DNA from: Paraburkholderia sabiae
Lineage (GTDB): Bacteria > Pseudomonadota > Gammaproteobacteria > Burkholderiales > Burkholderiaceae
NCBI RefSeq assembly: GCF_030412785.1
Contig: NZ_CP125295.1
Span: 1,612,001-1,676,000, forward strand
Direction of reading: 5' to 3'
DNA: 64,000 nt
Of the stretch, positions 44,210 to 61,890 are shown one piece after another; positions within the stretch are counted from its first letter, which is position 1; every line of letters begins with the position of its first letter. The position numbers and the translations under genes were made by a program. The notes under the pieces are model-generated. The model saw nothing but the letters and a program-made list of their open reading frames with translations. It did not search any database and was not told the origin of the DNA.

Positions 44210-45718
44210 TCAGTGGCCGTGACCGTCGTGGTCGTGACCATGATCGTCGTCATCGTCGCGGCCGCAGACGTCGTCGTGATCGTGATCGCGGCCGTTCTTC
44301 GACACGCCCGGCAGACGCTGCGCGACATAGTCGGGCAGATCGGCGGCGTCGATCGCGAACACGAAGAACTGGTTCGGATTGGCGATGCCCGCGGGATGGT
44401 TCGTGTCGGTGACAGTCCCGATGAAGTCGTTGTCGTTCGCGACATACAGCGTGTGCTTCTTCACGCCGTGCACGGTGACGTCCGGACCGAACGCGATGCC
44501 TTCGATCTTCGCGGGGATGTCGTTCGCGTTGTAGCCGGCGCCCGTCAATGCAGCGACGATATCGAGGAACAGCGTCTTCTTCACAGCATACGGTGCGAGA
44601 CCTTTTTCGCCGCTTGCCTGGCTCACGTCCTGCGCACCCGTCAGGTCGATGCGGTTGATCTGCTTGAACACTGCCGTCGAATCGTCGCCGAGCCCCTTGC
44701 CGTCGCGCTCGTCGACAAGCAGTTCGTGATCGTTGATGGCGAGCACGTCGCTGATCGTCGGGTACTTCGGCTTCGATGCCGATCCGATGTTCGTCAGCGG
44801 ATACGCGTATTGCGTCGTACGGCCCGTGCGAATGTCGATCTTAACGATGCGCGTGTACTGCGCGTTCGTGCCGCCGTCCTGGATCAGCGGGCTTTGCATC
44901 GCGCCGAACAGCGTCGTGCCGTCGGGCGAAATCGCGAGGCCTTCCATGCCCTTGTTCGCGACGCGGCCCGACGTGTTCACGCTGATCTCGGTGTCGCCAA
45001 CGGGCGCGAGCGTCGAGACGGCGAACGTGTCGGGCAGCTTGTACGTCGCGATGCGGCGGCCGCTCTTGCGGTCGAAGCGGTACACGTACGGGCCGTATTC
45101 GTCGGAGATGAACACGCTGTCGCCGTCGTTCGCGATGCGGATGCTTTCGGGATCGAAGCGGGCGTCGAGCGGATAGGTCGACAGATGCGTCGGATCGAAA
45201 TTGTCCGAGCGGCCCGTGAAGTAATTCGTGTGATTCTCGCGGTTGAGCTTCGGCGCGCCGTTGGGCACGTTATACGCGGAGCCCGCGCCGTACACGAGGC
45301 GATCGGACGTATGCAGCAGCGTCGTATCGATCAGCTTCGGCGCTAGCGTGAACGGCAGCGCCGAGCCTTTCGGCGCATCCTTCAGATGCAGACGCAGCGT
45401 CTGGAAGCGGTTGATGTACGAAGCCGTATCGTCGATCGACTTGTTGTACGAAATCGCATTCGGGCCACGGTCGGGCACGGCGAGGAACGTATGGCAGCCC
45501 GCATAGCCGATACCCGAACCGAGGCCGCCGAGCAGATTGCCGGGCGCACCGTTTTCGAGCGGGGCCGCCGTTTCTTTCGACTTGTCGAGCAGATTGCCGT
45601 CGAGCTTGCCGATCGCGATCAGTTCGACAGTGGCGTGGGCGGCGGGAGCCGCGGCGAGTGCCGCAAGCGAGGCGACGGCACCGAGCATGGTGCGGGTGAA
45701 AAGCGATGAGCGCAGCAC
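44210..45718 (-). CDS. Esterase-like activity of phytase family protein with His/Asp-rich tail
   Basis: A 502-residue exported protein starting at a GTG (complement of 45716-45718) behind AAGGA. The signal peptide ends near APAAHATVE. The body is a beta-propeller of the phytase esterase-like family, with landmarks PDRGPNAISYN, FDPESIRIANDGDSVFISDE and NKGMEGLAISPDG. The C-terminal end, about 25 residues, is Asp/His/Gly-rich (RDHDHDDVCGRDDDDDHGHD), a probable metal-binding tail. It is likely periplasmic and phosphoesterase-like; the substrate is not proven. The wider frame upstream is rejected. Confidence 0.82.
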   Translation of the reverse strand: MLRSSLFTRTMLGAVASLAALAAAPAAHATVELIAIGKLDGNLLDKSKETAAPLENGAPGNLLGGLGSGIGYAGCHTFLAVPDRGPNAISYNKSIDDTASYINRFQTLRLHLKDAPKGSALPFTLAPKLIDTTLLHTSDRLVYGAGSAYNVPNGAPKLNRENHTNYFTGRSDNFDPTHLSTYPLDARFDPESIRIANDGDSVFISDEYGPYVYRFDRKSGRRIATYKLPDTFAVSTLAPVGDTEISVNTSGRVANKGMEGLAISPDGTTLFGAMQSPLIQDGGTNAQYTRIVKIDIRTGRTTQYAYPLTNIGSASKPKYPTISDVLAINDHELLVDERDGKGLGDDSTAVFKQINRIDLTGAQDVSQASGEKGLAPYAVKKTLFLDIVAALTGAGYNANDIPAKIEGIAFGPDVTVHGVKKHTLYVANDNDFIGTVTDTNHPAGIANPNQFFVFAIDAADLPDYVAQRLPGVSKNGRDHDHDDVCGRDDDDDHGHDHDGHGH

Positions 45719-45806
45719 GGAAGTGGTCCTTGAAAGGAGCAACGCGATGAGGGCGGCGCCGGGCGCGCACGGCAGAAGCAGGAAAGCGGCAAGCGACCGG
45801 ACGCAG

Positions 45807-45830
45807 GGTTTCTTACTGGGTTTCTTACTT
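45807..45830. repeat. Two perfect tandem copies of GGGTTTCTTACT
   Basis: Copies at 45807-45818 and 45819-45830, in the 281-base gap upstream of the phytase-like gene, about 90 bases before its start. A 12-base period is close to one helical turn, so this might bind a regulator such as a response regulator dimer. Confidence 0.6.
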
Positions 45831-45999
45831 TTTATTTCCGGGCACCGATATTCCGTGACGTGTATGTCGGAAGTGTGACGGAGCGCTTTCGAACCGTGCC
45901 ATGTGTGCGCAATCGCACATTCAGATGAGCGGACGTCATCGATGCACGCGCACTCATATCGATGCCGCATGAACGGCATCGCGCGTTATGACTGCACGC

Positions 46000-46908
46000 T
46001 CAGTTCCGCCCGCCGATTTCAGGCGCGATGGCTGCATGATTCAGCAGCGCGACGAGCGACATGCCGCCCACCACGTTGCCCGCGAGCGTCGGCAGCAGGA
46101 AGCGGTTGAAGTAGTCGGCGAGCGACGCGTCGCCTGCCAGCACCGCGTAGGCGACTTCCGTCGATCCCGCGATGATGTGCGACAGCTTCGCGACGGCGAC
46201 CACCCATGTGATCAGCACGACGGTCAAAAGCCGCGCGGAGCGCGCGCTCGGCAGCAGCCACACCATCAGCGCGATCAGCCATCCGCCGAATACTGCGCGC
46301 ATGAAAGTGGGGAACGTTTCGACGGGACCGATCGCGCCGCGCGCGGTTTCGTCGAGTGCATCGACCACGTCCGCTTCGAACACGCCCGGCAGGCGCAGCA
46401 TCGCCGCGAACAGCCACGAACTGATCACGTTGCAGACGAGCACGACGATCCATAAACGCAGTGCCTTCAGAAAACAGTCCAGTTCGCGCCGGGTCAAAAC
46501 GGGAAGCACCACCGTCAACGTGCTTTCGCTGAAGAGCTGCTGCCGTCCCATGATGACGAGCACGAAGCCCGTCGTGTAGCCGAAGCTCGACACGAGATGC
46601 CGCCATGACGTATCGGGAAGACCGGCCTGCAGCACGGCCGTCGTGAGAAACGAAAATCCCATCGACAGTCCCGCTGCGAGCGACGACCACACGAGCGCAA
46701 TCACCGTACGTTCGAGCGCGGCTTCGCCTTCCTCGCGCACGATCTCGTGCAGCATCAACGCGTGCGGCGCCGTGTGTTGTGCCGCCTGGTCCTTTTCGCC
46801 TTCGTCGAGGTGCGGCGATTCCGCGCCTGCTTTTTCCGGGCGATCATCGGAAGCGGCACGATCGGTCGAATCGCGTTGCTGTTCCCGATGGGTAGTGTCT
46901 TTCGTCAT
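46000..46908 (-). CDS. Formate/nitrite transporter family protein (YfdC-like)
   Basis: A 302-residue protein with a 60-residue hydrophilic N-terminus followed by six TM segments of the FNT fold. Characteristic segments are SLAAGLSMGFSFL, then SHIIAGSTEVAYAVLAG and LLPTLAGNVVGGMSLVALL, matching the YfdC branch. YfdC members are inner-membrane channels of unclear substrate. It faces the phytase-like gene in the same direction with a 281-base gap. The Asp/Glu-rich N-terminus is typical of this branch. Confidence 0.85.
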   Translation of the reverse strand: MTKDTTHREQQRDSTDRAASDDRPEKAGAESPHLDEGEKDQAAQHTAPHALMLHEIVREEGEAALERTVIALVWSSLAAGLSMGFSFLTTAVLQAGLPDTSWRHLVSSFGYTTGFVLVIMGRQQLFSESTLTVVLPVLTRRELDCFLKALRLWIVVLVCNVISSWLFAAMLRLPGVFEADVVDALDETARGAIGPVETFPTFMRAVFGGWLIALMVWLLPSARSARLLTVVLITWVVAVAKLSHIIAGSTEVAYAVLAGDASLADYFNRFLLPTLAGNVVGGMSLVALLNHAAIAPEIGGRN

Positions 46909-48914: not shown

Positions 48915-49454
48915 TTACGCAGCGCACAGCCTCGGCACACGATGAAACTGACGGTCGAAGTAGATGAGGCTGTCGCCATCGGCGCATACGCGGATCTGTA
49001 CGGCCTCGACGAACATCACGGAATGCGAGCCCACTTCCTTCAATTCGACGATGGTCCCTTGCAGGCTCGCGAGTGCATCGCGCAGCACGGGCACGCCGTG
49101 CAGACCTTCGTCCCAGATCGGCAACCCGAAGCGCGCATCCATCGGCAGTTGCGTGAGTCCCGCGAAGTGCCGCGCGAGCAGTTCATGATGACCCGGCAAC
49201 ACATTGATGCAGACGTTGCGGTTGCGTTCGAACACGGCATGCATTGCGCTCGACCGGTTCATGCAGACGAGCAGCGTGGGCGGCGCATCCGTCACCGAGC
49301 AGACAGCGCTCGCCGTGATGCCACAGCGCCCGGACGGACCGGACGTCGTGATGACGTTGACGGCTGCGCCCAGATGCGCCATCGCCTGGCGAAACTGTTT
49401 GCGCGCGTCGTCGGGTGAGAGCGTGGTCGCGTGAAGAGCGGACGGTTGGGACAT
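48915..49454 (-). CDS. iacG: Flavin reductase of the IAA degradation system
   Basis: A 179-residue flavin reductase of the HpaC/HsaB family: GAAVNVITTSGPSGRCGITA, then SVTDAPPTLLVCMNRSS and the C-terminal DGDSLIYFDRQFHRV. It reduces FMN or FAD with NAD(P)H and supplies the free flavin used by IacA. The ATG complement at 49452-49454 is preferred because its AGGAAGG site has the correct spacing. It is separate from the other iac genes and divergent from iacR1, so it has its own promoter. Confidence 0.8.
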   Translation of the reverse strand: MSQPSALHATTLSPDDARKQFRQAMAHLGAAVNVITTSGPSGRCGITASAVCSVTDAPPTLLVCMNRSSAMHAVFERNRNVCINVLPGHHELLARHFAGLTQLPMDARFGLPIWDEGLHGVPVLRDALASLQGTIVELKEVGSHSVMFVEAVQIRVCADGDSLIYFDRQFHRVPRLCAA

Positions 49455-49810
49455 GTGCATGCCTTCCTGTACGTTGAGTCGCTGCCGGTCGATCTCGCTT
49501 GCGACGATTGCGCGCGCGACGATCCCATGACGCAAGCGTACGGCACGCATCGCACGAATAAAATCCGCGCGAGCGGCACATGCGTTAGCACGCTTCCCGA
49601 GCCGGCTAAAGGTTTTACCAGGTTGCATTTCACGCGCATTCGAGCATTGAGCGCGAGTACGCGCCGGAAACGGAAAAAGCCTGCACAGAAGGCTTTTCAT
49701 GCGTATTTCGGCTGGTTATGATGGGCTTCCACAATAATTGACAGGTAACGCGTGGAGACAGCCGGACGTCGAACGGCGCGCATTGCCGATGGTTCGAGAA
49801 GGTTCAAGAC
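49455..49810. promoter_or_regulatory. 356-base divergent region between iacG and iacR1
   Basis: The region has no supported gene. It contains CTAAAGGTTTTACCAG (49606-49621), which shares the first half-site with the palindrome between iacA and iacS but not the second, and a TTGACA hexamer at 49738-49743 whose -10 partner is not evident. Regulation by the IacS/IacR1 system is possible. Confidence 0.4.
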
Positions 49811-50470
49811 ATGAGTTCAGCGAGCAAGGCGCCATCCACCGGTTCGCCCGCGCCCGTCGTGTACATCGTCGATGACGACAACGGCATGCGCACATCACTG
49901 GCGTGGCTGCTGGAGTCGGTTGGCGTGAAGTCGGAAGGATTCGCGAACGCCGCCGATTTTCTGCAGGCGTTCGATGCGAACGTGCCCGCATGCCTCGTGC
50001 TCGATGTGCGGATGCCCGAGACGAGCGGCTTCGATGTGCAGGCGGAACTCAACGCACGCGGCGCGACGCTGCCGATCATCTTCGTGAGCGGGCACGGCGA
50101 CATTCCGATGTCGGTGCGCGCGTTGCAGAACGGCGCGATCGATTTCGTCGAGAAACCGTACAACTCGCAGCAGATGCTCGAACGCATTCAGCGCGCGATG
50201 AAACTCGCGACGCAACGGCATGCAGCGGACCAGAAGCATCGCGAGCTGCGTCAGCGGATCGAGTCGCTGACGGCGCGTGAAAAGGAAGTGCTGCGCGGCG
50301 TGCTGGACGGCAAAGGCAGCAAGCGCATCGCATCGGATCTGTCGATCAGCGTGAAGACAGTCGACGTGCATCGCGCGAGCATCAAGGACAAGCTCGGCGC
50401 GTCGTCGATCGCCACGCTGGTGCGCGATGTGATGGCCGTGTGGAATACGGGCGAGGGCGGACGCGAATAG
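49811..50470 (+). CDS. iacR1: FixJ/TodT-type response regulator of the iac locus
   Basis: A 219-residue response regulator: acidic triad D21-D23, phosphoacceptor D65 in LVLDVRMP and K115 in VEKPYN, followed by a LuxR-type HTH (LTAREKEVLRGVLDGKGSKR, then KTVDVHRASIKDKL). The kinase partner is probably the PAS histidine kinase encoded at 54777, as in TodST/StyRS-like and FixLJ-like pairs. It should bind a palindromic site as a dimer and activate iac promoters. The symbol follows the description of LuxR-type regulators in Paraburkholderia iac loci, from memory. Confidence 0.75.
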   Translation: MSSASKAPSTGSPAPVVYIVDDDNGMRTSLAWLLESVGVKSEGFANAADFLQAFDANVPACLVLDVRMPETSGFDVQAELNARGATLPIIFVSGHGDIPMSVRALQNGAIDFVEKPYNSQQMLERIQRAMKLATQRHAADQKHRELRQRIESLTAREKEVLRGVLDGKGSKRIASDLSISVKTVDVHRASIKDKLGASSIATLVRDVMAVWNTGEGGRE

Positions 50471-50508
50471 TGTCGAAGTGCATGGCATTGCCATACACTT
50501 CGTGTGTT

Positions 50509-51252
50509 CTATCGCATGTAAAGGCCGCCGTTCACGTCCCAGCACGCGCCGTTTGCAAAGTAGGCATCGCCCGATGCGAGCAGCAACGCAACCTGCGCCA
50601 CGTAATCCGCCGAACCGAGACGCCCGACGGGAATGCTCGACACCACCTTGTCGAGCTTGTCGGCGGGCACGCTTTCATGAACGATCGGCAAATCGAGTGG
50701 TCCCGGCGAGATGGCATTGACGGTCACGCCATGCGCAGCGAGATCGCGTGCGAACACCTTGGTCAACGTGATCGCACCGCCTTTCGCAGCGGCATAGTGC
50801 GCGCCCGTCGCCGAGCCGCCGTTTTGTCCCGCGAGCGAAGCGATATTGACGATACGTCCCACGCCGCGCTCCGCGAAATACTGGCCGAACACCTGGCAGC
50901 CGAATAGCACGCTGCGCAGATTGATATCGATGACCTGATCGAATTGCTCGGCGGTGATCTCCATCACGGGCACGACTTTCGACGCGCCCGCGTTGTTCAC
51001 GAGTACATCGACCTGTCCCCATCGGGCGATCAATGCATCGCGCGCTGCTTCGAAATCTTCCTTGCGCGTGACGTCGAGGCGAATTGCGCATGCCGTCTGA
51101 TGGTCAGCGCTCAATTCGGCGGCCAGCGTTTGCGCGGCATCGAATGCGATATCGGCGAGTGCGACGCTGTAGCCCGCGCGATGAAACTGCTGCGCGACGA
51201 CGGCACCGAGACCACGTGCCGCGCCCGTTACGATGACAACCCTGTTCGACAT
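50509..51252 (-). CDS. iacE: Short-chain dehydrogenase of IAA degradation
   Basis: A 247-residue SDR with TGAARGLG (9-16) for cofactor binding, NNAGA after strand 4, and the catalytic set S139, Y153 and K157 (in YAAAKGG). IacE is the SDR of the iac pathway, thought to act on the hydroxylated indole acetate intermediate formed by IacA. It is the last gene of the iacA-B-I-H-E unit and follows iacH by 51 bases. The ATG complement at 51250-51252 has AAGGA upstream. Confidence 0.78.
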   Translation of the reverse strand: MSNRVVIVTGAARGLGAVVAQQFHRAGYSVALADIAFDAAQTLAAELSADHQTACAIRLDVTRKEDFEAARDALIARWGQVDVLVNNAGASKVVPVMEITAEQFDQVIDINLRSVLFGCQVFGQYFAERGVGRIVNIASLAGQNGGSATGAHYAAAKGGAITLTKVFARDLAAHGVTVNAISPGPLDLPIVHESVPADKLDKVVSSIPVGRLGSADYVAQVALLLASGDAYFANGACWDVNGGLYMR

Positions 51253-51303
51253 GAGTAATGGTTCCTTCGCTGCGTGCATTCATACGAACGCACGCTGTTG
51301 ACA

Positions 51304-52443
51304 TCAAGACGCGGCGAGCGCCGCTTCGAAGTGCGCGGCGACGGCGCATACCTGTTCGTCCGCGCCCTTGCGTCCGATGATCTGCAAGCCGGCCTTTAGT
51401 GTCGAGCCTTCGATCGGAATTGGCAGGCTCAACGCGGGGTGGCCGCTCAGATTGAACGGGCGGATCAGCGACGACATCGCGATGACGGAGGTGCCGTTGC
51501 GCGCCGCTTCGATGGTGATGGGCAGCGCGGGCAACGTCGGCATCACGAGCACATCGGCGCTGTCGAGCGCGTGATCGACGGCGTTCGTGAACGCACGTCG
51601 CACGCGTTCGGCGGCATCGAGTTGCGTCTGTGTGGTTTGCGCTGCGGCGCGCAGACGCGCGTCGAGATCCGCACCGAGCTTGCCCGTGTCGACGAGATGA
51701 CCGAATGCACGCGACGTTTCGACGTTGATCACGGCGAGGCCCGCGTCGAAGGCGTCTTTCATGTGTTCGAGTTCGATGACGCGCGATGCGAACTCTGCGA
51801 CGCGCACGGCACGCGCTACGCCTCGCCCGATAGCGGCGTCGGCATCGACGGAAACGATCGCGACGTTGGCGTTTGCGTTCGAACGCTTTGCAGTAGCCGC
51901 ATCGAATGCAGGCGTGATCGCGGCCATCGCGGCGATGAGCGTTGCGATATCGCGCGTGAACGGACCGACGCAATCGAGCGTCGATTCACGCGGCGCGACG
52001 CCATGCCGCGACACACGCCCGAAGGTCGGCTTGAGTCCGATCACGCCGCAACAGGCTGCTGGTCCGCGAATCGAGCCACCCGTATCCGTGCCGAGCGCGG
52101 CGTCGACGAGCTTCAATCCGACAGCCGATGCCGAGCCGCTCGACGAACCGCCCGGAATGCGCGCGGCGTCCTGCGGATTGACGGGCGTGCCCGTGTAATC
52201 GTTGATGCCCGTCATGCCGAATGCAAGTTCGTGCATGTTCGCTTTGCCCGTAATACGCCAGCCCGCATCGAGCAAACGCTGCACGACTTCGGCATGCGCG
52301 GAGGCGGGCGGCGCGTCGGCGAGCGCGCGGCTTGCGCCCGTCGTCGGATAGCCAGCGATGTCGATCGAATCCTTGATTGCGATGGTCGGGCCTTGCGCGG
52401 CGGCATCCGCGCTCAACGTGAATTCGCTGATGAATGCAGTCAT
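51304..52443 (-). CDS. iacH: Amidase of IAA degradation
   Basis: A 379-residue amidase-signature enzyme. K24 (IAIKDSID), the cis-Ser in PGGSSSGSA (about S101) and nucleophile S124 (GTDTGGSIR) form the Ser-cisSer-Lys set. IacH is expected to open or hydrolyse an amide in the indole-derived ring intermediate after IacCD action; the exact step is not certain. The start (complement of 52441-52443) overlaps the iacI stop by four bases, a coupled arrangement. Confidence 0.8.
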   Translation of the reverse strand: MTAFISEFTLSADAAAQGPTIAIKDSIDIAGYPTTGASRALADAPPASAHAEVVQRLLDAGWRITGKANMHELAFGMTGINDYTGTPVNPQDAARIPGGSSSGSASAVGLKLVDAALGTDTGGSIRGPAACCGVIGLKPTFGRVSRHGVAPRESTLDCVGPFTRDIATLIAAMAAITPAFDAATAKRSNANANVAIVSVDADAAIGRGVARAVRVAEFASRVIELEHMKDAFDAGLAVINVETSRAFGHLVDTGKLGADLDARLRAAAQTTQTQLDAAERVRRAFTNAVDHALDSADVLVMPTLPALPITIEAARNGTSVIAMSSLIRPFNLSGHPALSLPIPIEGSTLKAGLQIIGRKGADEQVCAVAAHFEAALAAS

Positions 52444-52967
52444 GATGTCATGTCCTTGCGAGCGTTGACTTGCCAGGGCGCATCGAACAGACGCTCGGTG
52501 CGAAAGTGCTGGATCAGCCACGTATGTCCCTTCGTAGCGGGCACGAAATCGATCTCGAGCCGAGCGGCGATCAGTTCGGCGCGCGCATCGACATAGCCCG
52601 ACGCCTGCAGCATGATCCAGCGGCCTTTTGCGTGCGCGCCATCCACTTCGATTGTCTCCGAGGTAAGGAAGTGCACATTGGTCGCAAAGTGCGGAACGGG
52701 CGGCAGATAACGCTGCAGCATCGCGAGAATCGCGTCATGTCCTTGCAAGTGGCCGAATTTTTGCGTGTATTGCGGACCGATGCCTTCCCAGATCGCGTCT
52801 TCCGTAAAGAGCGCGGCGAGCGATTCGCCGTCGAGTGCGCCCGAGGGCACATCGCACAAAGCCATATAGCGCGCGATCGTTTTACGCACCGCGTTTTCGG
52901 CTTCGAGTGCGGCGATGCGGACTTTCAATGCCTCGAACGCGGCAATGGGCAACGTGATATCGCTCAT
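52440..52967 (-). CDS. iacI: SnoaL/NTF2-fold protein of the iac operon
   Basis: A 175-residue NTF2-like protein. After an N-terminal helix (FEALKVRIAALEAENAVRKT) it follows the SnoaL fold, with LFTEDAIWEGIGPQYTQKFG and FLTSETIEVDGAHAKGRWIM, typical of the hydroxylase or polyketide-type cyclase group. IacI's role in IAA degradation is not firmly assigned; it may act as an isomerase or hydrolase-like helper. It lies 3 bases after iacB and overlaps iacH. Confidence 0.72.
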   Translation of the reverse strand: MSDITLPIAAFEALKVRIAALEAENAVRKTIARYMALCDVPSGALDGESLAALFTEDAIWEGIGPQYTQKFGHLQGHDAILAMLQRYLPPVPHFATNVHFLTSETIEVDGAHAKGRWIMLQASGYVDARAELIAARLEIDFVPATKGHTWLIQHFRTERLFDAPWQVNARKDMTS

Positions 52968-52970
52968 GAT

Positions 52971-53363
52971 TCAGGACGCATTCTGCGCTGCCGCGTTTGC
53001 CGCAGCGGGCGGCACCGTCAACGCACGGCCGACGCGCGCCTCGATCTTGCCATAGCGCCACAGGTTGTATTCGCCGACGGGTGTCGTGCGATACAGGTTG
53101 CACACGGCGACGGCCGTGTCGAAATCGGCGACGTCGGCCATGATGTAGAAGGTCCACGGCGCACCATCCGACTGTCCGACCACAAGCCGGTCGTCATCCA
53201 TCACGCCGAGCACACGCACGTTCTCCATTGCTTCGACGGCGGCCAGCATCTTGCCGTACGCCTGCCATACCTCGCCGATCTGCTCGCGCGGCAAGTCGAA
53301 GAAATTCTGCGTGACGCCGCAGCAGAACAGTACGCGCAATGGCAACGAACGATTGTCAGTCAT
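52971..53363 (-). CDS. iacB: IacB-like protein of unknown function
   Basis: A 130-residue small protein with an alpha/beta ferredoxin-like look (LRVLFCCGVTQNFFDLPREQ, then WTFYIMADVADFDTAVAVCN). No catalytic residue set is recognisable. Its position, 48 bases after iacA and 3 bases before iacI, matches the small IacB of known iac clusters. Its function has not been assigned with certainty, and I call it IacB on size and position, not on a shared fold. Confidence 0.65.
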   Translation of the reverse strand: MTDNRSLPLRVLFCCGVTQNFFDLPREQIGEVWQAYGKMLAAVEAMENVRVLGVMDDDRLVVGQSDGAPWTFYIMADVADFDTAVAVCNLYRTTPVGEYNLWRYGKIEARVGRALTVPPAAANAAAQNAS

Positions 53364-53411
53364 GAAACGAAACTCCCTTGAATACAGGTGTAGAAAAAGT
53401 AGCTTGATCGG

Positions 53412-54608
53412 TTACAGATAGCCGGGAATAGGCGGCACGCCGACGAAGACGGCACCCGCGCCGTCGTAATTGCCTTCGCCGAGAAAAGCGTGCTGTGTGA
53501 CGACCATCGCATCGCGCATCAGGCGCTGCAACGGATGCGAGCGATAGATCGCCATCGTGCCGCCCAGCCGGTACGCGCGGCTCACGACATCGGCGCCTTC
53601 ACGCGCAATCTGCGTCGCGGCGAGACGCAGCAGGCTCACTTGATCCGGCGTCACGTCGTTGCCGGCGAGAATCGACTGCCACACGCTATCCGTCGATTCA
53701 TAGAAGAACGCGCGCGCCGAGCGCAATTGCGCTTCAGCCTTCGCGAGTTCGATGCGGTAGTACGCGCGGTCCGCGAGTTGCGGGGCGCCCGTCGTCGTCT
53801 TGCGGCCGCCCGCCATCTGGTTCGCGACATCGAGCGCGGCGCGGGCGAGCCCGAGGTTTACGACGGCGAGTACCTGTGCAGCGTAGGCAATGGTCGGATA
53901 GCGATACAGCGGTTCGTCGACGGTCGGCGTGCCGCCGCGCACGAAGGTCCAGTCGTCGGCGACGAGCTGGTCGGTCACGCGCAAATCGTGACTGCCCGTG
54001 CCCTGCATGCCGACCACGTCCCAGTTCTCGACGATTTCGACCTGCTCTGCCGGGAACACGGCGGTACGCGGCTTGCCGGGCGCAGCACCGTCCCTGCTGC
54101 CCGTGCTGATCCCTACGCCCAGCCAGTCCGCGCCCTTGCAGCCGCTCGCGAACTTCCATGTGCCGTTCACGCGCCAGCCGCCGGGTGCCGGTTGCGCGGG
54201 CTGCACGGGAAACAGGCCACCCGCGAACACCTGATCGGGACCGGCCGCATAGATGGCTGCCTGTGTCGCAAGCGGCAGCGCCGCGAGATACACGTTCGCC
54301 GATCCGAAGCTCGCGACCCATGCCGCCGAGCCGTCGGCAACGGCGATACGTTCGATCATCGCGAGGAATTCGCCCGGAGCGCGCGCGTCGCCACTGAAGC
54401 GCCGGGGCGTGCCAGCGCGATAGATGCCGGCGCGCTTGAGCTTTGCGATCACATCGCGCGGCACGTGCGAGATGCGATCGAATTCGTCGCGACGTGTGGC
54501 GATTTCAGCGATCACGTCGTCGAGGGAAAGCGCGTTAGGCGCTTCGCGTTGCAACGGCTCGATGCTGCGTTCATCACATGAAGCGAGGGCTGCGGCGGTG
54601 GCTGACAT
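53412..54608 (-). CDS. iacA: Flavin-dependent indole-3-acetate monooxygenase
   Basis: A 398-residue protein of the acyl-CoA dehydrogenase-like two-component monooxygenase group. Typical elements are NGTWKFASGCKGADWLG, VVGMQGTGSHDLRV and LRLAATQIAREGADVVSRAY. In the iac pathway IacA hydroxylates IAA at the indole ring with reduced flavin from IacG, the first committed step. A strong AGGAGG site is 7 bases before the ATG. It is the first gene of the iacABIHE unit and divergent from iacS. Confidence 0.85.
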   Translation of the reverse strand: MSATAAALASCDERSIEPLQREAPNALSLDDVIAEIATRRDEFDRISHVPRDVIAKLKRAGIYRAGTPRRFSGDARAPGEFLAMIERIAVADGSAAWVASFGSANVYLAALPLATQAAIYAAGPDQVFAGGLFPVQPAQPAPGGWRVNGTWKFASGCKGADWLGVGISTGSRDGAAPGKPRTAVFPAEQVEIVENWDVVGMQGTGSHDLRVTDQLVADDWTFVRGGTPTVDEPLYRYPTIAYAAQVLAVVNLGLARAALDVANQMAGGRKTTTGAPQLADRAYYRIELAKAEAQLRSARAFFYESTDSVWQSILAGNDVTPDQVSLLRLAATQIAREGADVVSRAYRLGGTMAIYRSHPLQRLMRDAMVVTQHAFLGEGNYDGAGAVFVGVPPIPGYL

Positions 54609-54735
54609 GTCGAATCCTCCTGAATGCGTTTGACGTTGTTGACGCGTTGTTGACGTTCAGGCCAGTCTAGAAATGCAAAAAAGCGCCATCAATTGGGGCG
54701 CCGATCCCCGTTTCCTGGTATCGACGCCTGCCCGT

Positions 54736-54751
54736 CTAAAGAAATCTTTAG
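54736..54751. promoter_or_regulatory. Palindrome between iacA and iacS
   Basis: CTAAAGA-AA-TCTTTAG is a perfect 7-base inverted repeat, 26 bases before the iacS ATG and 128 bases before the iacA ATG. It resembles the binding sites of TodT/FixJ-type response regulators, so IacR1 is the most likely ligand. Confidence 0.6.
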
Positions 54752-54776
54752 CGCCGTGACAGGTGAGGCGGGTGTT

Positions 54777-56300
54777 ATGGTTACGCGTGCCATCAAGGTC
54801 CGTCGAACGCGCATCATGAACTTTCCCGCCGAAGAAGATTTTCACCGCCTGCTCGATGCGTTGACGCTGTGCGTGCTGCTGCACGACGCGCAGACGAAGG
54901 CGATCGTGTGGGCCAATCACGCCGCGTGCGTCGCGCTCGGTTTTACGCTTGAAGAACTGCTGCCGCTGAAAGCGTCCGACATGACGCGTCCCGAACCGAA
55001 GTACCGGCGCGAAGTCGGCGTGGCTGCGATGGATCGCGCGATCACGCAAGGGCCGCAGGTGTACGAGTGGTGCTACCGGTCGCGTGAGGGTGTCGACATG
55101 CTGTCGGAGGCGATCGCGACGTATGTGCCGCTGCACGAGCGTGCCGTGGTCATGGTGCAGTTTCGCGACATCAGCGCGGAAGAAGCGGTGCGGCAGAAGT
55201 TGCGCCGCTACGAAACGCGTCTGCGCGAATTCATGCAGGATCTCGGCGAAGGCGTAGCCGTGCTGACGCCACGCGGCAAACTCGAATTCATCAGCGAATC
55301 GGGGCGTCGCGTGCTGGGCGTGATGCCTGGCGAGCCACTTGGCGGCGTGCTCGATTACTGCACGCTCGCGGATCGGAACCGGCTCGTCACGCAACTGCGT
55401 CACGCGACGAGCGAACAGCCCACGCATGCGCAGCGTTATCGCATCACGCGGCGCGACGGCGCGACGCGCTGGTTGCGTATCACGTGCCGAAGAGTGTCGA
55501 TCGAGAACGATCTGAACGGCTTGCTGATCCACTTTCGCGACATCAGCGATGAGGTCGCGACCGAGGAAGCGCGGCGCACGGAAGCGCGCATGCTCGAATA
55601 CGCGGGCCGCTACAACGCGATGGGCGAGATGGCGACTGCCGTTGCCCACGAGTTGAGCCAGCCGCTTGCAGCCGTGCGCAATTTCATCGAAGGCGCGATT
55701 CAACGGTTGAACCAGGGCAGTATCGATTCCGCCATTTGGGGCCTGCGCAGCGCGGACCGTCAGGCCGAGCATGCGGCGCTCATCATCAAGAGCGTGCGCG
55801 AATATGTCGTCAAGCGCGAGCCGACGGAAACGCACGCCGATCTGCGCGATATCCTCAACGACGTCGCGTACTTCATCGAATTGCGCGCGAAAGAAGAGGG
55901 CGTGTGCGTGCGGATCGAACAGGCGCAAGAAGCCTTGCCCGTATTTTGCGAGCGCGTGCTGATCGGGCAGGTGATCCTGAACCTCGCGTTCAACGCGGTT
56001 GAAGCTTTGACGGAGACGAAGGCCGCGACGGGCATCGTGACACTCGCGACCGCATTGGCGGGCGAACGTGCCGAATTGCGCGTGATCGACAACGGTCCCG
56101 GCGTGCCTGCCGATGCGCATGAACGGCTGTTCGACGGCTTCTCGTCGTCGAAGGCGGGCGGTAATGGCATCGGGCTCTCGCTGTGCAAGAACATCGTCGC
56201 GCGACATGGCGGACGTATCTGGGCACAGCCTGCGCATGAAGGCGGCCTCGACTGCCGCTTCGCGTTGCCGCTTGCGCCCGCCGCCGACGCGGCCATCTAG
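54777..56300 (+). CDS. iacS: Soluble PAS-domain histidine kinase of the iac locus
   Basis: A 507-residue protein without membrane segments. It has two PAS domains, about 20-135 (ends in VVMVQFRDISAEEAV) and about 148-260 (ends in GLLIHFRDISDEV), then a HisKA dimerisation domain with phospho-His H291 (VAHELSQPLAAV) and an HATPase domain with GPGVP and GGNGIGLSLCKN. The partner is probably IacR1. It likely senses IAA or a derived metabolite in the cytoplasm, like TodS and FixL relatives. The ATG at 54777 is better placed behind GAGGCGGG than other candidates. Confidence 0.78.
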   Translation: MVTRAIKVRRTRIMNFPAEEDFHRLLDALTLCVLLHDAQTKAIVWANHAACVALGFTLEELLPLKASDMTRPEPKYRREVGVAAMDRAITQGPQVYEWCYRSREGVDMLSEAIATYVPLHERAVVMVQFRDISAEEAVRQKLRRYETRLREFMQDLGEGVAVLTPRGKLEFISESGRRVLGVMPGEPLGGVLDYCTLADRNRLVTQLRHATSEQPTHAQRYRITRRDGATRWLRITCRRVSIENDLNGLLIHFRDISDEVATEEARRTEARMLEYAGRYNAMGEMATAVAHELSQPLAAVRNFIEGAIQRLNQGSIDSAIWGLRSADRQAEHAALIIKSVREYVVKREPTETHADLRDILNDVAYFIELRAKEEGVCVRIEQAQEALPVFCERVLIGQVILNLAFNAVEALTETKAATGIVTLATALAGERAELRVIDNGPGVPADAHERLFDGFSSSKAGGNGIGLSLCKNIVARHGGRIWAQPAHEGGLDCRFALPLAPAADAAI

Positions 56301-56307
56301 ATTGGCG

Positions 56308-56694
56308 TCAACGTCCAAGCGCGCGGGCCGTCTGACCGCCAATGCCGAAGTCGGTGTTGGGGATGTCCTTGATCATCACGCGCGTCGCCTGAAGCGGTGC
56401 GTCGAGCACGGCCGCAGCCGTTTCGGATAACGCCGCGATCAGCGACTGCTTTTGCGCATCGGTGCGGCCCGCAATCAGGATCGCGACGATCACGGGCAGC
56501 GAAGGCGGCGCACCGTTGGCAGCCGTCTTACCGCCCAGACCGATATGCGTGCCGGGCAATTCGCTGAGCAGGATGCGCACCGATTCGGCGGGCGCGTTGA
56601 TCGCGCTGACGGTGGCCTGCGTCAGGCCCTGGATCAGCGACGCCTTGCGCGCTTCGTCGTGCCCATGCGGCAGATAGACTTCGAGTGTAGGCAT
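56308..56694 (-). CDS. Tandem-fused 4-oxalocrotonate tautomerase-like protein
   Basis: A 128-residue protein with two tautomerase domains in tandem. The first starts MPTLEVYLPHG (catalytic Pro2 after Met removal) and ends about residue 60. The second starts at PVIVAILIAGRTDAQK with an internal Pro67, and repeats the pattern FGIGG near its end. Both domains keep Arg positions (R40, R77, R105), but only the second has F116. Natural 4-OT enzymes are about 62 residues. It is the last gene of the iacCD unit and a candidate for an isomerisation step. Confidence 0.7.
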   Translation of the reverse strand: MPTLEVYLPHGHDEARKASLIQGLTQATVSAINAPAESVRILLSELPGTHIGLGGKTAANGAPPSLPVIVAILIAGRTDAQKQSLIAALSETAAAVLDAPLQATRVMIKDIPNTDFGIGGQTARALGR

Positions 56695-56764
56695 TAACCA
56701 TCGCTCCTTGCGCACAGCGGTTCGGCTTTTGCATTGAAACGCCGCCGCTGTGCGCATGAAAAAC

Positions 56765-57265
56765 TCACAGCAGGAAACCGATCGCGCTCAGTGCTTCCGT
56801 CGAATCGATCAGGCGAATCACCTTTTCGACGAGACGCGGTTCGCCCGTCGTGAAGCTGATCTTGTGCGTGAGATCGGCGGCGAAAATCGTCGGCGTGCCG
56901 CGCTTGTACGCAACAATCACCTGCGCCGATTTGACTTCGACCACGTCGGCGACGTCGCTCGTCAACGTGAAGCGCGACACGGTTCGCACCGTGCGCGCCG
57001 CATCGGTCGCCGATGCTGAATAGCCGGACGTCATCCGTTGCACACGCTTCTCGCGCATGTCGTGATCGTCGTACGCATAGTTCAGCGTCGCGGCGTAGTC
57101 GGTCGTCTGCGGATCGATGGGCACGACATAGAAGCTCGACGGCTCCCACAATTCGAGCCACGCGCGATAGTCGCGACGGTCGAGCAATTCGGCTTCGCGC
57201 CAGATGAATTCGATCGCGCGCGCGAAGGTCTGTTGCGAGAAGAGTGCGTTACGGTCGTCCATCAT
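56765..57265 (-). CDS. iacD: Aromatic-ring-hydroxylating dioxygenase beta subunit
   Basis: A 166-residue protein of the SnoaL-like ring-hydroxylating beta-subunit family (FIWREAELLDRRDYRAWLEL, then FYVVPIDPQ). It pairs with IacC to form the Rieske oxygenase. The ATG at 57263-57265 overlaps the iacC stop (ATGA), consistent with coupled translation. It has no catalytic cofactor site itself; it stabilises the alpha subunit. It is followed after 70 bases by the tautomerase gene. Confidence 0.82.
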   Translation of the reverse strand: MMDDRNALFSQQTFARAIEFIWREAELLDRRDYRAWLELWEPSSFYVVPIDPQTTDYAATLNYAYDDHDMREKRVQRMTSGYSASATDAARTVRTVSRFTLTSDVADVVEVKSAQVIVAYKRGTPTIFAADLTHKISFTTGEPRLVEKVIRLIDSTEALSAIGFLL

Positions 57266-58545
57266 GCCTGCTCCATCATTGCGCGCCATTGGCGATACGC
57301 TTCGCGCATGCCCGTTTCATCTGTTGCGTGTGCTGTCTTTTCGCCGTTCGCAGCCGTCGTTTCGCGATTCAGGCCGCGGTTGACGAGAATGGGCACATCG
57401 GGGCCCGCATACGAACCGCGCTGCACGCGTTCCCAGGCTTCCGCGTCATCGGGACTGCCGAAACCGAACGGACCCTGGAAGTGTTCGTGGATGCGCAGGC
57501 GCACGCGGTTCGCTTCGTCGGGGCCGCCGTCCATCGCGAGCGCAACGTGGCGAATCTCCGTTTCTTCCGCGGAAATGGGCCGCAGCACGCGGAAAAAGGC
57601 CATCGACAGCGCGAGGTTCGGGAACAGGTTCAGATTGAAGCCGACGCCCATCAGCGAGCGCACGATGCGCCGCACTTCTTCCGGCGAGTGACGCTCCGCG
57701 AGTGTCGCGGCGAGTTCGTTGAAGCGCTCGGGCAGCGGCGCGCCGTCGTCCTTGTCGAGATCGACGATTTCGGGCACCAGCACGGCAAGACTATGGCCGT
57801 TGCCGAGCGAACGGCAGAACGCGTCTTCGCTCGTCATGAAGCTGGTGATCGCGGCAGCCGTTTCGTCGTCGATCGATTTCATCCACGATTTGTGCACGAC
57901 CGGGAAGTGATACAGATCCGTCGTGTTTTCCAGCTGGATTTTCCAGTTGCCCTTGAACTTGAACTTGTGCTCGCCGTTCGCCTTGATCGGATAGCCTGCG
58001 CCTTGCTTCATGAACAGGTCGATCCACGGCTTCGCACCGCCGAGAAAATCTTCGAGCGGTTCGATCTCGTCGTTGAAGCTCGCGAAGATCAGCCCTTGAT
58101 AAATACCGACGCGCAGCTTCGCGAGCGGCAGGTCGCCTTTCTCGCAAACGCCTTCATAGCCGTCGCCATAGGGCAGCGCGCGCAGCGTGCCGTCGAGCGC
58201 ATACGACCAGCTGTGATACGGACACGTGAAGCCTTTCGCATTGCCCTTGTGCTCTTCGCACACGGTCGCGCCGCGATGCCGGCAGCGGTTCTGCAGCACG
58301 TTCACGGTGCCCGTCTTGTCGCGTACGACGATCACGGGTTGTTTGCCGATCGTCGTCGTGCGGAAGTCGCCGGGGTTCGGCAGTTCGCTTTCGTGAGCCA
58401 CCCACACCCAGGTTTTGTAGAAAATCCGCTCGAGTTCGGCTTCGAACAGGTTCGGGTCGTAGTACAGCGAGGGCGCGATGCGATCGGACTGAACGCGGCC
58501 GCTCAGCGCACTCGTGTCGATGGTCTGCCAGGTAGTGTCGCTCAT
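57262..58545 (-). CDS. iacC: Aromatic-ring-hydroxylating dioxygenase alpha subunit
   Basis: A 427-residue Rieske oxygenase. The Rieske centre is C88-R-H90 (QNRCRHRG) and C108-P-Y-H111 (TCPYHSW). The non-haem iron site has D209, H212 and H217 (NTTDLYHFPVVH). In the iac pathway the IacCD oxygenase acts on an oxidised indole derivative, with reductase IacF, on the route to catechol. The ATG at 58543-58545 is chosen over an upstream frame start that would place a non-family extension across the promoter motif. Confidence 0.85.
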   Translation of the reverse strand: MSDTTWQTIDTSALSGRVQSDRIAPSLYYDPNLFEAELERIFYKTWVWVAHESELPNPGDFRTTTIGKQPVIVVRDKTGTVNVLQNRCRHRGATVCEEHKGNAKGFTCPYHSWSYALDGTLRALPYGDGYEGVCEKGDLPLAKLRVGIYQGLIFASFNDEIEPLEDFLGGAKPWIDLFMKQGAGYPIKANGEHKFKFKGNWKIQLENTTDLYHFPVVHKSWMKSIDDETAAAITSFMTSEDAFCRSLGNGHSLAVLVPEIVDLDKDDGAPLPERFNELAATLAERHSPEEVRRIVRSLMGVGFNLNLFPNLALSMAFFRVLRPISAEETEIRHVALAMDGGPDEANRVRLRIHEHFQGPFGFGSPDDAEAWERVQRGSYAGPDVPILVNRGLNRETTAANGEKTAHATDETGMREAYRQWRAMMEQA

Positions 58546-58654
58546 CGGTGTGTATGTCGGGACGTGATTGTCGGAAGTGGAAATCGAACGAAAGTGGACA
58601 CATGTCGTGTTTGTTTCGCGTTGACACCAGTCTCGCTTTGCACCGATCATGCGT

Positions 58655-58690
58655 CAAATCGATTAAAAATCAGCCGGTCAATAAGTCCGG
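58655..58690 (-). promoter_or_regulatory. Shared iac motif upstream of iacC
   Basis: CAAATCGATTAAAAAT (58655-58670) is followed after 10 bases by ATAAG and then CCGG. The identical 16-base word and the same phased ATAAG occur upstream of iacF. It lies 110 bases upstream of iacC and also 20-55 bases before the divergent LysR gene. Confidence 0.7.
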
Positions 58691-58710
58691 CAAATAGTCG
58701 GAAGTTCATC

Positions 58711-59631
58711 ATGACCTCACTCGATCACGTCGACCTCAATCTGTTGCGTGTGTTTCAGGCGATCGTCGACGAACGCAGCCTCACGAAAGCGGGGGAACGT
58801 CTCGCACTTTCGCAGCCGGCCATCAGCTATTCGCTGGCGCGTTTGCGCACGTTGTTCGACGATCCGTTGTTCATCCGTACGCGTTCGGGCATGCAGCCCA
58901 CGCCGATTGCGCTGGAACTCGCGGGCATCGTGGGCCGCGCACTCGATACCGTGCGCGAGGCGCTGCGTTATGCGGAGAGTTTCGATCCCGAAACGAGCAC
59001 GCGCACGTTCCGCCTGTCGCTCTCCGATGCAGGGGAAATGGCCTATCTGCCCGCGATCTGCGAGGCATTGCACGAGCGCGCGCCGCGCGTGAAGCTCTCG
59101 GTCGAGCCGTTGCCTGTGGAAGAGATGGAAGACGCGCTGCGTTCTAGCAGGCTCGATTTCGCAATCGGCAATTTGCCGCTGCTGATGGCGCGCACGCGCC
59201 ATCAGTTGCTATTCGAAGAGACGTATGTGTGCATGACGCGCAAGCGTCGCGGTTTGCCCGCAGGCCCGGCGTTGAGCCTCGATCATTTTCTGCAGGCGTC
59301 GCACGTGCAGGTGCGCTCCGTCGAGCACAGCCATCATGCGCTAGACGATGCGTTGCGGGCGCAGGGCGTGGGCCGCAATATCGTGCTGCAATTGCCGCAT
59401 TTCGTTGCGTTGCCGTCCGTGCTGGCCGTCACCGATCTGTTTGCGACGCTGCCGCGAAGGCTGGCAGGCATCCTCAATCGCAGCGACGTGTTTCGCATCT
59501 ACACGCTGCCCGTGTCGATTCCGCAGGCCACCGTGACGATGCACTGGCACGAGCACTTTCACGAAGACGAAGGCATCGCGTGGATGCGCGATCTGATGGC
59601 CGAGATGGTGAAGCGCTTCGACGAGAAATAA
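58711..59631 (+). CDS. iacR2: LysR-family regulator of the iac locus
   Basis: A 306-residue LysR protein with the start DHVDLNLLRVFQAIVDERSL and recognition region RLALSQPAISYSLARLRTLF, typical of the NodD/LinR-like aromatic-catabolism branch. It is divergent from iacC, and the shared motif at 58655 lies between them, so it probably controls iacCD and, via the second motif, iacF. It converges with iacF with a 2-base gap. A much longer frame running through antisense iacC is rejected. Confidence 0.8.
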   Translation: MTSLDHVDLNLLRVFQAIVDERSLTKAGERLALSQPAISYSLARLRTLFDDPLFIRTRSGMQPTPIALELAGIVGRALDTVREALRYAESFDPETSTRTFRLSLSDAGEMAYLPAICEALHERAPRVKLSVEPLPVEEMEDALRSSRLDFAIGNLPLLMARTRHQLLFEETYVCMTRKRRGLPAGPALSLDHFLQASHVQVRSVEHSHHALDDALRAQGVGRNIVLQLPHFVALPSVLAVTDLFATLPRRLAGILNRSDVFRIYTLPVSIPQATVTMHWHEHFHEDEGIAWMRDLMAEMVKRFDEK

Positions 59632-59633
59632 GC

Positions 59634-60602
59634 TCAGAGATCGAGGACGAGTACGGGCGAGCGCGAGCGCGACACGCAACAGCAGATCACGCTGTTGCTC
59701 GCGCGTTCGGCTTTGCTCAGGCAATGGTCGCGATGTTCGGGCTCGCCGCTCACCACGTCGACCATGCAGGTGCCGCATACGCCTTCGCCGCATGACGTGT
59801 CTACTTCGATGCCGATTGCGGCAAGGGCATCGACGATCGACGTCTTGCTGTCGATGCGCACGGTTTGCCCTGTGCTCGCAAGCTGCACGTCGAAGCTGTC
59901 GAGCGAATCGCTGGCAACGGGTTGCGGATCGGCCGTAAAGCGTTCGAGATGAATCGCATCGGCGGGCAAGCGTGCTTCGCCCGCGGCGACGACGCGATCC
60001 ATGAACGGCACCGGGCCACATGTGTAGACATGCGCGCCTTGCGGTGCATCTTCAAGACACGCAGCGAGTTCGGCGTCGAGCGCATCCGGTTCGATGCCGA
60101 AGTGCAGTTTCACATGCGCATCGAACGGCGCGCGCGACAGCAGAGGAAGAAACGCGGCATGCTCTTCACTGCGCGCGAAATAGTGCAGTTCGAAGGGCGC
60201 GCTCATCTTGACGAGACGATGCGCCATCGAAAGCAAAGGCGTAATGCCGATGCCCGCGCCGATCAACACATGCGTGCTGGCTTCTTCGACAAGGCGAAAC
60301 AGATTGCGCGGCGCGCCGATCGACAGTTCGGTGCCGATCTGCACATCGTCGTGCAGCGAACGCGAGCCGCCGCGCGATTGCGCTTCCTTCTTGACGGCGA
60401 ACAGATGCGACTCGCGGCAGTCGGGGTCGCCGCACAACGAGTACTGGCGCGTCACGCCAGCGGGACTCGTGACGTCGATGTGCGCGCCGGGTTCGTACGT
60501 GTCGAACGGCTGGCCATCGAGGCGCGAAACGACGAATGAACGGACGCCGTGTGCTTCGTCGCGCACGGCGTCGACGCGAACCTTGAACGAATGAGCTTGC
60601 AT
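59634..60602 (-). CDS. iacF: Oxidoreductase/ferredoxin reductase of the IacCD dioxygenase
   Basis: A 322-residue VanB/PDR-type reductase. The N-terminal half is an FMN/FAD-binding domain (YEPGAHIDVT, RQYSLCGDP), a central NAD-binding domain has LIGAGIGITPLLSMAHRL, and the C-terminal [2Fe-2S] plant-type ferredoxin domain has CGEGVCGTCMVDVVSG and a later Cys. It passes electrons from NAD(P)H to IacC. The C-terminus is unusually Cys/Ser/Arg-rich (VICCCVSRSRSP). The shared motif lies 87 bases upstream. Confidence 0.85.
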   Translation of the reverse strand: MQAHSFKVRVDAVRDEAHGVRSFVVSRLDGQPFDTYEPGAHIDVTSPAGVTRQYSLCGDPDCRESHLFAVKKEAQSRGGSRSLHDDVQIGTELSIGAPRNLFRLVEEASTHVLIGAGIGITPLLSMAHRLVKMSAPFELHYFARSEEHAAFLPLLSRAPFDAHVKLHFGIEPDALDAELAACLEDAPQGAHVYTCGPVPFMDRVVAAGEARLPADAIHLERFTADPQPVASDSLDSFDVQLASTGQTVRIDSKTSIVDALAAIGIEVDTSCGEGVCGTCMVDVVSGEPEHRDHCLSKAERASNSVICCCVSRSRSPVLVLDL

Positions 60603-60688
60603 GATGCGATCCAGTCTGTGGCTGTGTGTGCCCGCTTGTGGCTGTCAGGCGGAGTCACATTCAGCTTAAGGTTCGCATCCGGATCAGG

Positions 60689-60724
60689 CAAATCGATTAA
60701 AAATGGTTCGCTACATAAGCCGGT
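60689..60724 (-). promoter_or_regulatory. Shared iac motif upstream of iacF
   Basis: CAAATCGATTAAAAAT (60689-60704), then ATAAG starting exactly 26 bases after the motif start, and CCGG. This is the same order and spacing as the site upstream of iacC. Confidence 0.7.
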
Positions 60725-60748: not shown

Positions 60749-61729
60749 TTACCGGTTCACGTCGACCACGAGGCGTCCGCGCACTTTGCCGTCGAGCACG
60801 TCGGTTGCGGCCGCGAGTGCTTCGGCAAGGCTGACTTCCTTCACCATCGATGCGAGCCGTTCGGTGCTGAGGTCTTCGGCGATACGTTGCCACGCCTCGA
60901 CGCGGCGCGCATGCGGAGCCATCACGCTGTCGATGCCCGCGAGCGTCACGCCGCGCAGAATGAACGGCGCGACGGTGGCGGGCAAGTCCATGCCTTGCGC
61001 GAGTCCGCATGCCGCGACGATGCCGCCATACGCGGTGCCCGCGCATGCGTTCGCGAGCGTGTGACTGCCGACGGCATCGACGGCGGCGACCCAGCGCTCT
61101 TTCGCGAGCGGCTTGCCGGGACCGGACAGCTCGGCGCGATCGATGATCTCCTGTGCGCCCAGTTCGTGCAGATAGCCCGATTCGCTGGGGCGTCCTGTCG
61201 ACGCGATCACCTGATAGCCGCGCCGCGCGAGCAGCATGATCGCGACACTGCCGACGCCGCCCGCCGCGCCCGTCACGAGGATCTTGCCTTGCGCGGGTGT
61301 GACGCCATGGCGCTCGAGCGCGAGCACGCACAGCATCGCCGTGTAGCCCGCGGTGCCGACAGCCATCGCATCGCGCGACGTGAGCGGCGAGGGCATGGGC
61401 ACGAGCCAGTCGCCGCTCACGCGCGCGCGTTGCGCGAGCCCACCCCAATGCTTTTCACCGACGCCATAGCCGTTCAGGATCACAGGGTCACCCGCTTTCC
61501 AGTGCGGATGTTCGCTCGACTCGACGACACCCGCGAAGTCGATGCCCGGCACCATCGGGAAGCTGCGCACGACGGGCGAGCGGCCCGTGATCGCAAGCGC
61601 GTCCTTGTAATTGAGCGTCGACCATTCGATGCGCACGGTCACGTCGCCAGCGGGCAATTGCGCTTCGTCGATATCGCGGATAGATGCGTGGCTGCCGTTG
61701 TCCTGCTTCTCGATCAAGATCCCTTTCAT
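60749..61729 (-). CDS. AcuI/YhdH-type quinone oxidoreductase (acrylyl-CoA reductase family)
   Basis: A 326-residue MDR-family oxidoreductase. It begins [17 protein letters not shown] and contains [32 protein letters not shown] and the nucleotide motif [15 protein letters not shown], matching YhdH/AcuI. AcuI reduces acryloyl-CoA with NADPH; members also use quinones or other enones. No zinc ligands are present. It lies upstream of the iacF motif on the same strand; it may be unrelated to IAA. An alternative start 12 codons upstream adds an Asp/Ser/Thr repeat. Confidence 0.82.
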
Positions 61730-61890
61730 GGTCCCGTCCGTTGAGTCGTCTGTTGAGTCGTCCATTGCGTTCGCCCGTGAGCGTTGCATATCAGTCTAGG
61801 AGTCTAGGCGAATGCGGACAGCGTGGCGCGTCTTGCAGCGTTCAACAATTCTTCGGGTCGTTGCTGCCGGCGCCTGAAACGCGCGTATAC

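Follow-up and report, generated by a model that had tools for sequence, protein, structure and literature searches.

Two predicted operator classes and a fused tautomerase in a widely shared indole-3-acetate degradation locus of Paraburkholderia sabiae

We analysed a window of 64,000 nucleotides of Paraburkholderia sabiae (contig 1, positions 1612001–1676000, of a four-contig genome of 9.9 Mb), which carries at 48915–60602 an iac locus for the degradation of the auxin indole-3-acetate (IAA), and focused on its predicted control and on a tautomerase encoded within it. A previous sequence-only reading of this DNA had placed nine iac-type genes and three regulators in the interval; all of them were recovered in frames without internal stops and belong to the families claimed. 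The arrangement in four minus-strand units also stands: these are G; E-H-I-B-A; (Y)-D-C; and F, with the three plus-strand regulators interspersed. The inventory was correct for the nine iac genes but overlooked a tenth gene of the minus strand (56308–56694), which encodes a fused double 4-oxalocrotonate tautomerase (4-OT). With iacA, B, C, D, E, F, G, H, and I all present and free of internal stops, the locus holds the full gene set leading from IAA to catechol. Each regulator diverges from one catabolic unit (response regulator/iacG, kinase/iacA, LysR/iacC) and runs toward the next one. The open reading frames (ORFs) and predicted sites, in window coordinates, are the following:

48915..49454, minus strand: iacG, flavin reductase (family match; the ATG at 49454 was chosen, another in-frame ATG lies at 49460, and the ORF extends to 49700)
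49606..49621, minus strand: predicted response-regulator site CTGGTAAAACCTTTAG upstream of iacG, in the divergent iacG/response regulator intergenic region
49811..50470, plus strand: response regulator of the FixJ/NarL type (REC and LuxR-type HTH)
50509..51279, minus strand: iacE, short-chain dehydrogenase/reductase (family match)
51304..52443, minus strand: iacH, amidase (the ATG at 52443 was chosen; the ORF opens at 52521)
52440..52967, minus strand: iacI, SnoaL-like protein (family match)
52971..53363, minus strand: iacB, small protein with no family or domain match
53412..54608, minus strand: iacA, flavin monooxygenase of the acyl-CoA-dehydrogenase type (family match)
54736..54751, minus strand: predicted response-regulator palindrome CTAAAGATTTCTTTAG in the divergent iacA/kinase promoter region
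54816..56300, plus strand: soluble PAS-PAS histidine kinase (the ATG at 54816 was chosen; the ORF opens at 54693)
56308..56694, minus strand: fused two-domain 4-OT tautomerase (family match), here called iacY
56765..57289, minus strand: iacD, Rieske dioxygenase beta subunit (family match)
57262..58545, minus strand: iacC, Rieske dioxygenase alpha subunit (the ATG at 58545 was chosen; the ORF extends to 58650)
58653..58669, minus strand: predicted LysR site TTTTTAATCGATTTGAC, overlapping the -35 of the iacC promoter
58711..59631, plus strand: LysR-type regulator (family match)
59634..60602, minus strand: iacF, ferredoxin reductase (family match)
60687..60703, minus strand: predicted LysR site TTTTTAATCGATTTGCC, overlapping the -35 of the iacF promoter

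A search with iacC against a species-level genome collection found a relative encoded in 416 stretches, of which we used the best 80 loci, from Burkholderia, Paraburkholderia, Caballeronia, and Trinickia (cited below by L numbers). Twelve genes (F, LysR, C, D, kinase, A, B, I, H, E, response regulator, and G, i.e., all but the tautomerase) have identical order and strands in 62 of the 80 loci, and this recurrence implies that the cluster is not a chance assembly. Contig ends truncate some of the other 18 loci (L062, for instance, has a length of 7.4 kb). In some Paraburkholderia there are intervening genes, either in a stretch of around 3.5–7 kb between F and LysR or of around 1.4 kb before the kinase. 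The main copy of IacG is 72–96% identical across relatives. The implication of the sequence-only reading that this architecture is unusual relative to that of Pseudomonas was not upheld: it is shared by 62 of 80 loci, and a LysR regulator together with a LuxR/IacS pair has already been reported for P. phytofirmans PsJN. Judged at the level of sequence, the iac locus is ordinary and complete, resembles that of PsJN in kind, and is shared by many relatives.

Caballeronia glathei DSM 50014 can live on IAA as its only source of carbon and energy; there, IacA and IacE convert IAA to 2-oxoindole-acetate and on to dioxindole-3-acetate (DOAA) (PMC7225977). Its locus (L045) has the same gene order as the window, including the tautomerase, kinase, response regulator, and LysR, with 13 shared genes at 72–92% protein identity (A 87, B 92, C 91, E 83, kinase 72, response regulator 85, and LysR 83%); unlike the window, it has no acuI match beside the cluster. 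The low identity of IacA, IacC, and IacE that the sequence-only reading had named as a reason to abandon the assignment was therefore not found, with the proteins of this strain taking the place of those of P. putida 1290 or PsJN in the comparison. The same enzymes of C. glathei also convert indole-3-propionate and indole-3-butyrate (PMC7225977), and the genome of P. sabiae encodes a second IacA (66%) beside a transporter, which would suit a cluster that mainly degrades another indole acid of this sort, with IAA as a secondary substrate. We regard this as very improbable given the growth of C. glathei on IAA with the same cluster and the high identity of its A, B, C, and E proteins.

The cluster of P. 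putida 1290 has the order iacABCDEFG-R-HI with a LysR-type gene directly upstream (PMC6624763), and its IacR is of the MarR family (PMC9613470); it shares the iacABCDEFGHI set with the window and differs by gene order and by its MarR-family regulator. In PsJN, a LysR regulator is found instead of MarR (PMC9613470), and a LuxR protein with IacS, a putative two-component pair, occurs in four Pseudomonas strains as in PsJN (PMC11630574). These Pseudomonas strains thus have a two-component pair in place of MarR, as does the window, and PsJN shares with it both the LysR and the pair. Strain LB400 has a LysR-type IacR, cat genes inside the cluster, and a separate iacT2AG set on chromosome 2, an organisation said to be common to PsJN (PMC11676955), whereas the window set is one cluster without MFS or cat genes. 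A literature search on the promoters of iacS, iacR1, and iacR2 gave nothing related among the matches listed. Control in two layers is a published idea. What would be new here is evidence at the DNA level, with which a division of control between two operator classes fits, together with the proposed link to fused 4-OT.

The soluble kinase, the LuxR-type response regulator, and the LysR protein, all encoded in the locus, make up a regulator set of the PsJN type. The cluster, to which the search for IacR was confined, has no MarR-family iacR: its three regulators are the FixJ-type protein, the PAS kinase, and the LysR. The kinase has one HisKA/HATPase transmitter, two PAS domains, and no receiver, and its highest 19-residue hydropathy mean is 1.57. 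TodS-like sensors have two PAS domains, two transmitter modules, and a receiver. The sequence-only reading had called the pair TodST-like, a description that fits only loosely: we rejected membership of the TodST family on the single transmitter module and the lack of a receiver, and no TodS-named entry occurs among 53 sequence matches of the kinase or among the fold matches of its first PAS domain (50 listed, of 1429). The best NCBIfam models are FixJ for the response regulator (210.6, cut-off 255) and FixL for the kinase (169.6, cut-off 850); both scores lie under the cut-offs, and membership of FixL/FixJ was rejected as well. After leaving out proteins with a stop in the matched stretch or with coverage under 85%, the mean identity to the window kinase in 65 kinases (window included) was 0.83 in the first PAS domain vs 0.71 in the second; for the kinase of L111 the values are 0.60 and 0.41. 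The first PAS domain is the candidate for signal binding because it is the better conserved of the two. Its model has a plain PAS fold (mean pLDDT 93.0), with LOV, NifL, and FixL domains among the listed solved neighbours, and the 50 fold matches listed of 1429 point to no ligand.

Alignment of the upstream regions across relatives revealed conserved boxes of two different kinds. The box that we assign to LysR, TTTT(T/A)(A/G)ATC(G/A)ATTTG, overlaps the -35 of iacC and of iacF. In pattern searches it was present in 77 of 78 iacC/LysR regions and in 67 of 74 iacF regions (the window is counted in both), and its start lies 35 bases from a -10-like hexamer, a distance that is the same at the two promoters. 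Across the 9.9 Mb genome, TTTTTAATCGATTTGMC occurs only at iacC/LysR and iacF with the pattern used, and TTTTWRATCRATTTGMC with at most one mismatch has exactly two places, the iacC and iacF promoters (reversed control: 0). We then trained weight matrices on the relatives, leaving out the window and its three nearest relatives (L009, L010, and L011), and kept rows within 9 mismatches of the starting consensus for iacC (73 kept) or 6 for iacF (70 kept). The iacC-trained matrix ranked the iacC (43.8) and iacF (28.0) sites as the top two places of the window, ahead of the next at -2.1, and the iacF-trained matrix gave the same two sites (iacF 40.5, iacC 26.0; next 2.2). Among the best six window places, neither matrix listed anything near iacA or iacG.

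The box assigned to the response regulator resembles CTRAAG-N4-CTTTAG, is found in the iacA/kinase and iacG/response regulator regions, and is palindromic at iacA. In the genome, CTRRWRAWHYCTTTAG matches exactly these two regions (three counts, one site being read on both strands; control 0). Matrices were trained as above on rows within 4 mismatches of the starting consensus (62 of 65 for iacA, 58 of 63 for iacG). On the window, the iacA-trained matrix scored the iacA site 33.0 (22.2 on the other strand) and the next place 6.0, and the iacG-trained one scored the iacG site 24.4 and the next place 9.9. At iacA, the distance from the box to a -10-like hexamer is 81–82 bases in 66 of 69 regions (window included); at iacG, where the hexamer is TACGCT, it is 81–82 bases in 58 of 67. 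A wider search gave 10 further pairings of CTTTA and TACGCT in iacG regions, spaced 113–115 bases apart, and in L018 the distance at iacA is 60 bases, which is around two helical turns nearer.

Related elements accompany the kinase in a distant family. Among 398 Pseudomonadota genomes drawn, the kinase was found at E 1e-90 or better in four, the window's own included. Two of these belong to another family and have a kinase that is 53% identical and divergent from iacA, with CTAGGGGATT(T/C)CTTTAG, related to the iacA box, in the spacer. A pattern composed from these spacers matched perfectly in each genome at the kinase/iacA place alone; allowing one mismatch added two places in one of them (G058) and gave one reversed-control match in each. 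The box lies 61 bases from the -10 in both genomes vs 81–82 in most other loci, again a difference of around two helical turns. The response regulator (62–63% identity) is encoded at a separate locus, divergent from iacG, with TAGGTGGTTTCTTTAT in between. The gene order in this family is A-B-I-H-C-D-E..F, with the regulator and iacG (L118, L119) apart from the rest, and in neither iacA stretch was a LysR gene or a LysR box found. In L118, the ORF after iacG resembles, by eye, a catechol 1,2-dioxygenase; the contig of L119 stops at this point. Two relatives, L057 and L077, have an intermediate iacG site, CTGAAGAAATCTTTAG. The shared distance to the -10, this intermediate site, and the pairing in the distant family suggest that the iacA and iacG sites are one operator class.

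In most loci, the presence of this box tracks that of the regulator pair. Of the 67 loci with both kinase and response regulator, 63 have the iacA box (at most 3 mismatches) and 61 the iacG box; of the four that have iacA and iacG but lack one or both regulators, two have the box at iacA and none has it at iacG. The two loci with an iacA box and no full pair are L016 (kinase only) and L039 (neither). In L048, a fragment of 100 residues (75% identity) stands in place of the full-length kinase of the relatives, there is no response regulator match, and both boxes have been lost; its two-component system looks like one that is decaying.

We infer from the sequences which regulator would bind which predicted site, and several observations speak against a clean division of this kind. 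The LysR box and the -35 signals overlap and are inseparable by conservation. L039 keeps the iacA box with no kinase or regulator nearby. Six loci with both proteins show no clear iacG box (L012, L013, L018, L038, L041, and L044), and in L012, L038, L041, and L044 the iacA box is weak as well (4–5 mismatches). The genome pattern CTRRWRAWHYCTTTAG was itself composed to cover both window sites. These two sites resemble each other only in part: under the iacA matrix the iacG site falls below -0.5 and goes unlisted, and the iacA site comes fourth (3.7) under that of iacG. The overlap with the -35, together with L039 and the four loci with a weak iacA box, would be expected if the boxes were elements of the core promoter or sites of other factors. 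We find this improbable, since each box was found at only two places in the genome with the patterns used, the iacA box is palindromic, the box follows the regulator pair in most loci, and the distant family with the kinase has a related box before iacA although no LysR gene or LysR box was found there.

Joint control is common in aromatic catabolism. Both regulators could thus act on all four promoters of an iac locus, as a cascade or jointly, with the second class of site being too weak to see, and the weakness of the iacG site under the iacA matrix could be taken in that sense. Such control seems unlikely here, because neither class of site has a further genome match with the patterns used and the LysR matrices leave the iacA and iacG promoters blank among their best six places of the window. 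The reading that we prefer, and hold to be very probably right, is that of a complete iac locus leading from IAA to catechol, with control split between the two-component pair and LysR. The sequence-only reading had assigned the locus to iac and proposed control by two regulators; both proposals are supported by the identities with C. glathei (IacA 87%, IacE 83%) and by the two distinct operator-like sites.

In the pathway so proposed, IAA would be converted to DOAA by IacA, supplied with reduced flavin by IacG, and by IacE, as in the chemistry known from C. glathei. The onward conversion to catechol may be the work of IacC-D-F together with B, H, I, and the fused tautomerase, and the catechol would then be cleaved by the ortho pathway, whose genes lie outside the locus. 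The soluble PAS-PAS kinase and the FixJ-type response regulator would switch on iacABIHE and iacG as an ‘upper’ regulon, and the LysR protein would switch on iacCD(Y) and iacF as a ‘lower’ one. The signals would be IAA for the pair and DOAA for LysR, as reported for PsJN by Donoso et al. 2017. The same study is said to have found that an MFS protein and a tautomerase, of which the window has a counterpart only to the latter in its locus, help to remove DOAA.

The tautomerase of the window has two 4-OT domains in one chain and starts with Met-Pro. Its best solved relatives are 6BLM (E 1.2e-62), 6VVN, and 6VVM. The first of these is the fused 4-OT of Burkholderia lata, likewise a two-domain tautomerase: of its 127 residues, 105 are matched by the window protein and 122 by the protein from an iac locus of B. 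lata (L054). This orthologue sits within the iac locus of B. lata, as read from the genes of that locus rather than those of the crystallised strain. The fused 4-OT of B. lata is a superfamily linker with 2-hydroxymuconate tautomerase activity (PMC5818174), and the second domain of the window protein has, by eye, residues like Arg-11 and Arg-39, as reported there for Linker 2. The word ‘indole’ is absent from the main text of the paper, and a literature search, with subscription journals mostly outside its reach, returned no printed link between fused 4-OT and auxin breakdown among the matches listed. At E 1e-20, the tautomerase was found in 56 of 80 relatives. Its absence at this threshold from the other 24, which include the near relative L009 and two loci with short remnants, counts against a central role; it implies that the protein is not essential to the locus and is accessory or replaceable. 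From its place in the iac loci, the fused 4-OT of Burkholderia would have a role in the iac pathway between DOAA and catechol, which makes it a candidate enzyme for the uncharacterised steps between these compounds.

Taken together, these elements may form two regulons in one cluster: the pair would commit the first steps through a palindromic operator, and LysR would sense their product and open the lower half through a separate operator, with the physiological role of the fused 4-OT lying here between DOAA and catechol. We give this fuller scheme about an even chance. Auxin-degrading bacteria shape root growth, and control by a kinase pair and LysR is common in Burkholderia and its relatives; the two DNA sites could therefore be ready parts for auxin sensing. 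They would also allow a direct test of staged control.

As to the rest of the pathway, a catechol 1,2-dioxygenase above the family cut-off is encoded at position 3493559 of contig 1, beside ORFs that resemble, by eye, a muconate cycloisomerase and a LysR regulator. No MFS transporter ORF lies inside the locus (48915–60602). We used as MFS query the gene of L052, taken as IacT1-like by position only, which gave 48 matches in the genome: the best (67%) is at position 4726295 of contig 1, and one (34%) is in the window outside the locus, at around 32836–33999. On contig 2, at 330000–342000 (L104), an MFS transporter (47% to that of L052), the second iacA (66%), and an iacG-like gene (63%) follow each other on one strand, a set that resembles the iacT2AG cluster of LB400. 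Pattern searches found neither box at this set, and a LysR gene (41%) lies nearby.

Variant clusters occur among the relatives. L036, L042, and L046 have the genes A2, G2, a second LysR, C, D, tautomerase, I, and H, with no match for E, B, kinase, or response regulator within the stretches covered; C. cordobensis has both such a variant (L036) and a canonical cluster (L032). In L059 and L072, the canonical cluster has A2-G2-LysR2 separating LysR from iacC, on the strand opposite to iacC. Finally, the neighbours of the locus in the window include an acuI-type acrylyl-CoA reductase (60749–61789), which adjoins iacF and was seen in only 3 of 80 relatives, a phytase-like esterase-domain protein (44210–45979), and a formate/nitrite transporter (46000–46908).

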